Shown one piece after another: positions 2,307 to 6,846 of a DNA stretch of 64,000 bases; the first letter of the stretch is position 1; each line of letters opens with the position of its first letter. The position numbers and the translations under genes were made by a program. Source of the stretch: Egibacter rhizosphaerae (lineage in GTDB: Bacteria; Actinomycetota; Nitriliruptoria; Euzebyales; Egibacteraceae); assembly GCF_004322855.1 (NCBI RefSeq), contig NZ_CP036402.1:1674001-1738000 (forward strand), written 5' to 3'. The notes beneath the pieces are model-generated. The model saw only the letters and a list, made by a program, of their open reading frames with translations. It did not search any database and was not told the DNA's origin.

Positions 2307-4292
2307 TCAGCCGCGGTGGTCGTCGATGACGGTCGCCCCGAGCTCTCGGGTGACCGTCTCGATGGCTTGCTCTTGCAGGGCATCCGGGTCGGGAGTCGCG
2401 CCGACGGCCTCCTGGGCCTCGCGCTCGGCCACCGACTCCCCTTCGGCGTCGGCAGACACGCTGGGCGTGGACCCCGTCGGGGCGGCGTCGAGGTCCTCCT
2501 GCAACACGCAGGTGAGCCGCAGGCGCTCACCGAGCACTCGCTCGACCGCCCCACTGATCAGCTCGGCGTTGTCGGGCTGGCTGCAGCGATCGACGTGATA
2601 TGCCCAGGGGAACCCGACGGTCACGACGTCCCCCTCGCGCGCGAGCGGGCGGCCGTGCGCCAGGAAGGACGCGACGGACTTGCGGGGAACCGCCTCGACG
2701 ATCCGGTCCCACGACCGGCGCAGCTGCCCGACATCCACACCCGACGCAGTCGGGGCCCCCGCGTCGGAGGCAGGGGCCGATCGGGGCTCCGTGGCCGGCC
2801 CCACTTCGGACGCGGACACCGCACCCGGATCGGAGCCCGCGTTAGGCTCGGACTCCCCATCGTCGGCGGGCAGGACCTCGAGCTCGGGCACGGCACCGGG
2901 CTCGGGCACGCCACCGGGCTCGGGCACGCCACCGGGCTCGGGCACGCCACCGGGCTCGGGCGGCGCGTCCCGCACCGGCTCGGGCTCCGGCGTGGGCTCG
3001 GGATCGGGGGGACGGGGATCCGGCGTCGGGGTCGGGATCGGTGACGGATCGGGCTCGGGGACCGGGCCCGGCTGCGGCGGCGGGGTGGGCTCCGGCACCG
3101 GCTCGGGCTCCGGCGAGTCCGCAGCCCTCTCGCCGGCGGGTACCGCCGCCGAACTGCGCTCGAGGCGGTCGAGCCGAGCGGCGAGCGCCCCTGGATCCCC
3201 TGCCACATCGGGCAGGGCGGCCTTCGCGAGCGCGAGCTCGAGGGGCAGCCGGGCGCTGCCCCGGCGCATCTGCGTCTCGGCCTCGGTGAGCAGCTCCATG
3301 GCTCGCACGAGCTCGGCGCGCCCGATCCGCTCAGCCTGTGCGCGGAGCCGCTCGAGGCGTTCGGCGGTCGTGGTGACGAGCTGCTCGCCGGGAGCGACCT
3401 GCACGAGGAAGACCGCCCGCAGGTGCTCGACGAGATCCCGAGCCAGTTGGCGGACGTCATGGCCCTGCTCGATCGCTCGGTCGAGCAAGGCGCAGCAATC
3501 CGCCACCTGCCCGGTCCCGATCGCGTCGGCCAGATCGGTGAGCAGTGCGTCGGGTACCGAGCCGAGCACGTCGGCGACGCCGTCGACGGTGACGTCGGGC
3601 CCGGTGAACGCGACGACCTGGTCGAGGATCGACAGCGTGTCGCGGACACTGCCGTCGCCCGCACGGACGACGAGATCCCGCGCGTCGCTCTCGACGGTGA
3701 GGCCCTCGGCGGCCGCCACCTGCTCGAGGAACGCGGCCAGCTCGGACCCGCCGACCCGCTTGAAGTCGAAGCGCTGGGTGCGGGAGAGGATCGTGTCGAG
3801 CACCTTGTGCGGCTCGGTCGTCGCGAAGACGAACACGACGTGACCGGGGGGCTCCTCGACGGTCTTGAGGAAGGCGTTCCAGCCGGCCGTCGACAGCATG
3901 TGACACTCGTCGACGATGTAGACCTTCGTGCGAGCGGACGCGGGCGCGAACGCGACGCGGTCACGCAGCTCGCGCACGTCGTCCACCCCACCGTGACTCG
4001 CCGCGTCGATCTCGATCACGTCGACGTGGCTGCCACCCGCGATCTGCTCGCAGTGCTCGCAGGTCCCGCACGGGGTCGCGGTCGGGCCGTCCCGGCAGTT
4101 CAGGGATTTCGCGAGGATGCGCGCCGTGGACGTCTTCCCGGTCCCGCGCGGTCCGGTGAAGAGGTACGCGTGGTGCAGGCGGTCGTCGTCGACGGCCTGG
4201 GAGAGCGTCTCGGTGATGTGCGCCTGCCCGACGACCTCCTCGAAGGTCTGCGGACGGTGCTTGCGGTACAGCGAGATGGAAGCCACGCCCAC
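2307..4292 (-). CDS. dnaX: DNA polymerase III subunit gamma/tau
   Basis: Clamp-loader ATPase of the replicative polymerase. The 661-residue product opens with [17 protein letters not shown]. Walker A is GPRGTGKT (about 47-54), the zinc-binding cysteines are [16 protein letters not shown] (about 70-85), Walker B gives [10 protein letters not shown], and the sensor is [21 protein letters not shown]. After about residue 370 a long Pro/Glu-rich linker begins, including four near-identical hexapeptides of the type PEPGGV, before the tau C-terminal domain. The start at 4292 is followed two codons later by an alternative GTG, which would give the more typical [12 protein letters not shown]. It heads the dnaX-ybaB-recR group, and the SRP RNA gene lies just upstream on the same strand. 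Confidence 0.97.
2887..2958. repeat. four tandem 18-bp units in the dnaX linker
   Basis: Unit GGCACGCCACCGGGCTCG begins at 2887, 2905, 2923 and 2941; the first copy has one mismatch (G for C). Each unit encodes six residues, so changes in copy number keep the dnaX frame and only alter the length of its disordered Pro-rich linker. Confidence 0.9.
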
Positions 4293-4645: not shown

Positions 4646-5734
4646 CTAGGCCGCGGGACGGAAGGGGCAGTCGAGCGGCTCGACGTCGACCGGCCGGATG
4701 TTCGGCGCGCCGCTCTGGAGCAGCACGTTCACCGCCTCGTCGAACGACGCGACCGGATACAGCTCCATGCTCGTGTCGTCCGGGAGCAGCTCGTGGGCCT
4801 CCTCGAACTGGGTCGCCGGGACGAGGAACACGTCCGCCCCCCGCTCGTGCGCGGCGAGGGCCTTCAGGTCCACCCCCCCGATGCGCCCGACTACGCCCTG
4901 GCTCGTGAGGGTTCCGGTCCCGGCGATCCGGCGCCCCCCGGCGAGGTTGAGCGACGGGTCGCTCTGGTCGTACACCGCCAGACCGATCATGAGCCCGGCA
5001 CTGGGGCCCCCGATCCGTCCGCTCTCGACATCGACGGGCACGGGCAACTCGACCCGGGAGTTCAGGGTTTCCAGGTTGACCCCGATCGCGGGCTGCTCCT
5101 GCCCGTCGATCGTCAACTCGGACGGGGTGATCTCGACGTCGTGCTGCTGACCCCCGCGCTCGATGCGCAGGACCATCGGTTCGGTGTCGTCGATGGCCGC
5201 CCGCAGCTCCGCCTCGGTGCCGATCGCCTGCCCGTCGACCCCGATGATCACGTCACCGCCGCGCAACAGGCCTTCAGCGGGGCTGTCCTCCACGATCCCG
5301 GTGACCCGCGCGCCGTCCCCGATGAGGCGGTCCGGGTCCACTCCGAATCCGGCGGCCTGCAGCCCGAGGGCGGCCGCGCGCTGCGCGGTCTGCGAGAACA
5401 CGCGCCGCTGCCCCGCGAAGTGGTCCCGGTCGTCGACGCCGGGGGTCACGACGCGGTCGTCGGGCCGCAGCCGAGCCGAAGGATCGACCGCACTCGCGAC
5501 CACCCCGAACGGGGTGGCGCGCCTGAGGCTCACGGTCGTCAGCATGAAGTCGCCGTGCACCGGCAGGGTGTCCTCGGCATGGACGTCGACGCAGCCGCCG
5601 AGGGTCACGACGCTGCCCGTGGTCTCGACGAAGTAGGGCAACGGCGCTCGGAATCCCGCGGCCACGATCAGCACGATCCCCACCACCAGGAACCAGGCGG
5701 GCCACCGCTTGAGCCAGCCCATCCGCGATCTCAC
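4646..5734 (-). CDS. YlbL-type secreted PDZ-Lon (S16) protease
   Basis: A 362-residue membrane-anchored serine protease of the YlbL family. Residues 12-27 are a single N-terminal membrane anchor, the PDZ domain spans about 135-205 (GLLRGGDVIIGVDGQ), and the Lon-type proteolytic domain spans about 215-350. The catalytic dyad is visible: Ser245 in GGPSAGLMIGLAVYD and Lys291 in GGVDLKALAA. Family members degrade extracytoplasmic substrates; in Bacillus, YlbL is linked to degradation of a cell-division inhibitor after DNA damage. The GTG start overlaps the stop of the upstream S2P-like gene by 4 bases, so the two are probably co-translated; an ATG four codons in is possible. Confidence 0.9.
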   Translation of the reverse strand: MRSRMGWLKRWPAWFLVVGIVLIVAAGFRAPLPYFVETTGSVVTLGGCVDVHAEDTLPVHGDFMLTTVSLRRATPFGVVASAVDPSARLRPDDRVVTPGVDDRDHFAGQRRVFSQTAQRAAALGLQAAGFGVDPDRLIGDGARVTGIVEDSPAEGLLRGGDVIIGVDGQAIGTEAELRAAIDDTEPMVLRIERGGQQHDVEITPSELTIDGQEQPAIGVNLETLNSRVELPVPVDVESGRIGGPSAGLMIGLAVYDQSDPSLNLAGGRRIAGTGTLTSQGVVGRIGGVDLKALAAHERGADVFLVPATQFEEAHELLPDDTSMELYPVASFDEAVNVLLQSGAPNIRPVDVEPLDCPFRPAA

Positions 5735-6846
5735 CGGCCGACCCCTCTCACGTCGTCGCCGACCAGGAGGCCGACCGGCCGACCCAGCTCGGTGACCAGC
5801 ACGCTCTCGCCCGGGGACTCCAACAGGCGGTCGAGGGCATCCTCGGCCGACTCGTCCGCCTCGACGTGGTGGTCGGTGAGGGACTCGGCCGCCTCGTCCG
5901 CGTCGACGTGGTGGTCAGTGAGGAGCTCCGCTGCCGGCGTCACGCTCATGGCGACACCGGTGGCCCCGGGGGGTCCGGGCGCGTCAGCCCCGCTCACGTC
6001 CGATGGCAGGGGACGCATCAGATCACGGACGCGGGTGCTCGCGAGGGCTTGCCGCCAGGTCGCCCAGCGTCGGGCCTGCCAGGCGGCCTGGAGGAGGAAC
6101 CCTCCGGCGAGCAGGGTGAAGACCCAGTTCGTGAGGCCGAGCAGGGCCGCATAGAGCAAGGGCCCGGTGATCAGCGGTTGCGGCCCTCCGGCCATCCCGT
6201 AGACGCCGGCCGCGAGGAGGGCGAGGGCGACCACGATCCCCCCGGTCGCGGTGGCCCGTGCCGCCCGTGCCGGCCGCGCGCCCAGCGCCCATGCGACCGC
6301 GCTGACCAGGCGTCCTCCGTCCAGCGGCAGCGCCGGCACCAGCGCGGCCATCCCCAGGAAGAAGTTCGTCCACGCGAGGTACCCGGTGACCACCCCGAAC
6401 GGGTTCTGCGCCGGCGCGATCGAGTAGATGAGGCCGCTGGCACTCGCGAGCGCCAGGTTGGTGAAGGGGCCGGCGGCCGCGACCGCGGCGGCATCACGGG
6501 GGCGTGGAGCAGCGTGCAATCCGCGCACGGTCCCGCCCACGAGCGCGAACGTCAACGAGCGGGGACGCAGACCCAATTCGTGCGCGATGGCGAGCTGCGC
6601 GGCGTCTCGAGCGAGCAGGCTGGCGAGGGCGAGGGTCACGCCGACCGCGACCGCACCCGCGATCCCCGCCCAACCGAACGGCCACAACAGCGTGGCGAAG
6701 CGATCGACGAGGACCCAGACGATGAGCCCGCACACCAGCAGCCACGAGAGGTGGACCCGCACCGTGAGCCCGTGCGGGGTCGCGAGCGTGGCCGTCCGCA
6801 GCATCACGGGGCGGCTCAGCGCGGCGACGGCGCTCTCGCGGTTCAT
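5731..6846 (-). CDS. site-2-protease-like membrane protein with degenerate zinc motif
   Basis: A 371-residue polytopic protein of the SpoIVFB-like S2P fold, followed by what looks like part of a CBS domain (about 325-371, ending VLVTELGRPVGLLVGDDV). At least five hydrophobic segments are visible between residues 33 and 255. The third metal-ligand motif is present as PLDGGRLVSA (Asp176). However, the HExxH position, expected just ahead of the IAHELGLRPRSLTF stretch, reads RDAAQ (residues 80-84), so both zinc-binding histidines and the catalytic glutamate are missing. Residues 307-340 hold a twofold repeat (LLTDHHVDADEAAE / SLTDHHVEADESAE). It is likely inactive as a protease. Its coupling to the YlbL-type protease suggests an accessory or substrate-presenting role, which is an inference. 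Confidence 0.8.
   Translation of the reverse strand: MNRESAVAALSRPVMLRTATLATPHGLTVRVHLSWLLVCGLIVWVLVDRFATLLWPFGWAGIAGAVAVGVTLALASLLARDAAQLAIAHELGLRPRSLTFALVGGTVRGLHAAPRPRDAAAVAAAGPFTNLALASASGLIYSIAPAQNPFGVVTGYLAWTNFFLGMAALVPALPLDGGRLVSAVAWALGARPARAARATATGGIVVALALLAAGVYGMAGGPQPLITGPLLYAALLGLTNWVFTLLAGGFLLQAAWQARRWATWRQALASTRVRDLMRPLPSDVSGADAPGPPGATGVAMSVTPAAELLTDHHVDADEAAESLTDHHVEADESAEDALDRLLESPGESVLVTELGRPVGLLVGDDVRGVGR

Follow-up and report, generated by a model that had tools for sequence, protein, structure and literature searches.

Site-2 proteases (S2Ps) of the CBS-tailed group (group III), represented by the M. jannaschii enzyme (3b4r) and SpoIVFB, are by sequence the nearest solved relatives of a protein encoded in the window, by which we mean the whole stretch of 64,000 nucleotides analysed here. 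With these enzymes the window protein shares the Pfam M50 domain, the membrane fold, the LDGG aspartate and apparently a CBS-type tail, but it carries RDAAQ in place of HExxH, has lost a conserved Asn and retains its CBS pair as a remnant. No bacterial pseudo-S2P was found in the open-licence papers searched, where the only named S2P pseudoprotease is the Arabidopsis chloroplast protein EGY3, predicted to be inactive from the loss of its active-site motif, conserved throughout plants and induced by stress (PMC9355673). Both EGY3 and the window protein are S2P homologues lacking the active-site motif; the window protein, however, is found in a single bacterial lineage and differs further in that its gene and that of a serine protease form an operon-like pair.

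This neighbouring serine protease has the same N-terminal membrane helix, PDZ domain and Lon-type Ser-Lys dyad as B. subtilis YlbL (PMC6051672) and SepM. According to a PLoS Genetics study (PMC6051672), YlbL clears the membrane division inhibitor YneA and contacts it in a two-hybrid assay; the study left the manner of recognition open and raised the transmembrane region or an adaptor as possibilities. YlbL is not known to have an S2P partner, which counts against a partner role for the window S2P. A cofactor role has been demonstrated for iRhom pseudoproteases with ADAM17 (PMC11248996). What that system shares with the window pair is, however, the idea alone, in which an inactive intramembrane protease serves as cofactor to a membrane-tethered protease that is active; iRhoms are of the rhomboid family, which is unrelated to S2P, and the cofactor role of the window S2P is one that we infer. 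Closer to the family itself, zinc-free preparations of SpoIVFB keep hold of their substrate, by beta-augmentation and via the linker (PMC11486902); an S2P that lacks zinc is thus still able to act as a binder.

Active-site residues of the window S2P

The gene (positions 5731–6846 on the reverse strand, as are all features below) encodes 371 aa from an ATG start and is an orthologue of the CBS-tailed S2P that is paired with a PDZ-Lon gene in Nitriliruptoria; its product matches Peptidase_M50 (Pfam PF02163) at 43.2 bits (cut-off 27.2). As the sequence-only reading had observed, R80-D-A-A-Q84 (codons at 6595–6609) occupies the position of HExxH. Alignment around the motif (ASLLA-RDAAQ versus ASILA-HELGH) is ungapped on both sides against 29 orthologues and one in-genome paralogue, and the assignment is therefore safe. 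Further losses had been overlooked by that reading, among them that of the first CBS half (see below): the E of a conserved RDE, present in 18 of 19 order-level orthologues, is A119 (6490–6492), and the N of the FNxxPxxPLDGG motif, found in all orthologues, is A168 (6343–6345). Furthermore, N130 replaces a conserved S three residues after GP in the orthologue alignment. Retained are L175-D176-G177-G178-R179 (6310–6324, by alignment), which lie inside a kept block (P171..P174-LDGGR-L180). The Asp of the LDG motif, D176, is accordingly present where HExxH is absent, at what we take to be the remaining, third zinc-ligand position of S2P. Since the two histidines that bind zinc, the glutamate of catalysis and the conserved Asn have all been replaced, the protein should neither hold zinc nor cut; judged from its residues, it is almost certainly zinc-less and, with high confidence, a catalytically dead, non-cutting S2P homologue. 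S2P ancestry combined with lost active-site residues, as established by the alignment and the survey described below, defines it as an S2P pseudoprotease, a status that had been proposed from the RDAAQ motif.

Modelling is in keeping with this assignment with respect to the fold. The predicted structure of the window S2P (mean pLDDT 64.9, with much of the membrane core at 70–86) has M. jannaschii S2P (3b4r) as its best solved match (Z 12.8, rmsd 4.2 over 142 residues, model positions 17–173); the S2P membrane fold is kept according to the model, and the retained membrane layout and LDGG(R) motif that had been described from the letters are borne out. AlphaFold gives no position for zinc, and pLDDT falls below 50 in the loop before LDGG (171–175) in the models of both the window protein and an active orthologue, so the structure neither strengthens nor weakens the sequence-based zinc case.

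A changed metal site or a new activity, formed through D81, Q84, H89-E90, D176 or the paired histidines (HH) in the tail, might be imagined from the facts that D176 and D81 remain and that H89-E90 is new in the window lineage. We consider this very improbable: there is no second His nearby, nine residues (about 13 Å of helix) separate H89 from position 80, both N168 and E119 have gone as well, and pLDDT is near 30 in the stretch that contains or adjoins the HH repeats. H89-E-L-G-L was also considered as a displaced HExxH and was rejected, as it has no second His and its "ELG" aligns to the DRG position of the orthologues; shifted reading frames through the RDAAQ region were likewise unneeded, the alignment being ungapped.

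To place the motif in its class, S2P homologues of this kind were collected by searches across 66 Nitriliruptoria genomes, yielding 71 non-redundant sequences. HExxH is present in 70 of these, the window S2P being the sole exception; the survey thus lends no support to RDxxQ as a motif conserved in a clade, as had been envisaged. The dead form is seen in one genome, other genera carry HExxH, and HEVGH stands at this position in the orthologue of the closest relative with a sequenced genome (Nitriliruptorales CSSed162cmA_423R1; G008 = L067), so RDAAQ represents one lineage-specific catalytic loss. The same genome contains two other M50 genes, of which one, at 0.80 Mb, is a CBS-type paralogue reading HELGH and the other, at 1.06 Mb, reads HEAGH; S2P activity as such is therefore not absent from the cell. 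A scan of genome contigs with the window S2P protein as query found no relative, and the PDZ-Lon alignment as query returned mostly Bacillota YlbL loci, 4 of 80 loci having such an S2P in the retrieved flank. Another very long-branched S2P of the class (L179, G058:C87) has an intact HExxH (VIAHELAHALVARALRL).

The sequence-only reading had held that close orthologues with an intact HExxH would make this either a single decayed copy or a sequencing error. Such orthologues exist and agree with the former, but not with the latter. The occurrence of the motif in one genome only is what an error of sequencing or assembly, or an ORF that arose by chance, would produce; this explanation is nonetheless vanishingly improbable, given that substitutions are spread over the whole gene, that the locus is conserved and that the M50 profile is matched. 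A local double frameshift is ruled out by the ungapped motif alignment, the gene-wide changes and the assembly of the genome as a single contig of 4.64 Mb.

Tail remnant and tempo of change

Erosion of the window S2P extends to its tail, where alignment, Pfam and the model together indicate a remnant of the second CBS repeat (5752–5868), the first CBS half being missing or disordered. The CBS domain is below Pfam detection here and is detected in four orthologues, in one of them over the cut-off. In the model, the tail (residues 271–365) resembles half of a CBS pair (~50 residues, Z about 6), and residues 281–324 have a pLDDT below 50, whereas the tail of an active orthologue, modelled in the same manner, is CBS-like throughout (pLDDT near 88). 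At the start of the remnant, and at the end of the weakly modelled stretch, lies a 42-nt tandem duplication (5842–5925) whose copies (5842–5883 and 5884–5925) are 88% identical, encode LTDHHVDADEAAES / LTDHHVEADESAED and are absent from the orthologues. This accounts for the twofold TDHHV-(D/E)ADE repeat that had been picked out from the translation; the metal or nucleotide sensing role suggested for it finds no support: the repeat is a product of duplication, and most of the region around it is predicted to be disordered.

Matched trees of 20 taxa were compared for S2P and for PDZ-Lon. The terminal branch of the window S2P has a length of 1.88 versus 0.28 for its sister L004 (about 6 times), while for PDZ-Lon the window lineage has 0.29 versus 0.24 for the same sister; as the partner's branch is normal and the S2P branch long, the acceleration is confined to S2P. 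The window S2P departs from the shared residue at 29 of 60 columns on which the other orthologues all agree (0–10 in any other orthologue), and its invariant columns changed at about the rate of the average position, which resembles general relaxation. Near-invariant columns are kept at 1 of 10 in the HExxH helix and 10 of 16 around LDGG, with a clustering of retained invariant columns that was not significant in a runs test over all columns (p 0.29).

These results could be explained by a relic, a gene that has been drifting since S2P activity became dispensable in the window lineage. The long branch and the changed invariant columns are as expected for such a gene, as are the loss of a CBS half and the tandem duplication in the tail; moreover, the S2P gene is missing from the locus in the sister family f3 and hence is dispensable there. 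Neutral decay was simulated starting from the L004 gene (200 runs; the identity ratio of 0.333 versus 0.637 corresponds to decay to about 0.5–0.6). At 157 conserved hydrophobic columns, the window protein has 5 polar and 17 non-hydrophobic residues, with 11 columns deleted, versus 13–17 polar and 31–39 non-hydrophobic residues under simulated neutral decay at matched divergence; the lowest non-hydrophobic count in the neutral runs was 20 (200 runs, equilibrium GC 0.72). GC3 of the window gene is 0.895 versus 0.82–0.84 under neutrality. There is no frameshift across the 371 codons and no in-frame stop, the latter having a P of about 0.04–0.1 under neutrality at 72% GC and being weak evidence alone, as an open frame lasts long in high-GC DNA and the absence of stops says little against a relic. 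Because the simulation was started from the relative L004 rather than from the true ancestor, and indels were outside the model, we take these comparisons (hydrophobicity, GC3 and the lack of stops) as moderate evidence that selection for a membrane protein continued through much of the fast phase. With membrane-segment hydrophobicity and GC3 retained to a degree that almost no neutral simulation of equal divergence reached, and with the PLDGGR block and the gene overlap intact, a relic is the less likely reading, though a serious one, and the pseudo-S2P is probably still a functional protein.

The gene pair and a possible non-cutting role

The S2P gene is followed by the gene of a 362-aa YlbL-type PDZ-Lon membrane serine protease (4646–5734), which it overlaps by four nucleotides (GTGA, 5731–5734) at the stop/start junction, an arrangement already visible to the sequence-only reading. 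The partner is intact by Pfam, alignment and tree: it matches PF17820 (29.9 bits) and PF05362 (29.8 bits), and its catalytic Ser245 (in GGPSAG) and Lys291 are kept and invariant. It scores below the cut-off of the SepM equivalog NF041438 (117.8 bits versus 200). The conserved block continues with dnaX (2307–4292) and then ybaB, recR, aspartokinase and asd, named from size, homology and position. The nearest relative shares with the window both the 4-nt overlap and a gene order of S2P–PDZ-Lon–dnaX–ybaB–recR–aspartokinase–asd, and its Lon is 62–63% identical to the window PDZ-Lon; the comparison firmly supports orthology of the two S2Ps. In the 30 class pairs examined, the PDZ-Lon gene lies behind the S2P gene, overlapping or abutting it. 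The class-wide pair (L003–L031, L156–L175) adjoins dnaX–ybaB–recR in most genomes with flanks compared. No published description of the pairing turned up in a small literature search directed at other questions.

Stop/start overlaps of 1 or 4 nt occur in almost all S2P–PDZ-Lon pairs of the class and are kept in the window, and this raises an explanation in which the frame is maintained mainly as its translation feeds the overlapping PDZ-Lon start, whatever the protein itself does. Such a leader cistron would account for an open frame combined with an eroded function. It would place no demand on the PLDGGR block or on the hydrophobicity of membrane segments, yet both are kept, and we judge it to be quite unlikely, more so than a relic.

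Sister family f3 bears on the relation between the two proteins. There, the Lon gene before dnaX (adjacency seen in G024 and G029) is short, without the PDZ stretch, and has no S2P gene upstream (L225 and L227, the Lon of L227 being 261 aa). An apparent joint loss of S2P and PDZ in f3, with both kept in the window, suggests that S2P and the PDZ of its partner belong together. This link comes from a single loss event, which we count among the points against the explanation preferred below.

Taken with the conservation of the locus and the preserved hydrophobicity, the joint loss lends indirect support to the plausible idea, suggested at the outset, that the pseudo-S2P may regulate the PDZ-Lon protease or present substrates to it, and the protein is more likely to have been kept as a membrane binding partner of PDZ-Lon than as a mere relic. 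That it acts on this partner at all comes slightly short of an even chance, and a lineage-specific S2P pseudoprotease serving as non-cutting adaptor or brake of PDZ-Lon is, to the same degree, a serious possibility. The full scheme, more tentative still and drawn by analogy with iRhom–ADAM17, is that of a bacterial S2P pseudoprotease that evolved in place, whose zinc-less cleft binds substrate and which, as a membrane adaptor or brake, acts on the PDZ-Lon product of the overlapping gene. Under the preferred explanation, the ancestral pair would have consisted of a site-2 protease, active and CBS-tailed, and a PDZ-Lon serine protease anchored in the membrane; in relatives the pair may cut in sequence, first outside the membrane and then inside. 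In the window lineage, replacement of the zinc-binding and catalytic residues of HExxH and of the Asn before PLDGG has almost certainly abolished zinc binding and cutting. The membrane core, the GG of the re-entrant hairpin and the PLDGGR block survive, with translation presumably coupled to that of the partner by position. Most likely, the old substrate cleft would still bind membrane segments, either from clients or from the partner, so that the pseudo-S2P would act as non-cutting adaptor or brake and PDZ-Lon would make the sole cut.

A bacterial pseudo-S2P within a conserved S2P–PDZ-Lon pair would provide a simple system for the role of a non-cutting S2P membrane cleft, and the pair of S2P and YlbL-type protease genes that occurs across the class beside dnaX and recR is a candidate two-step membrane-protein degradation unit. 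Within the same block, the dnaX product of the window has a long, proline-rich linker in which a GGVPEP-type repeat occurs four times.
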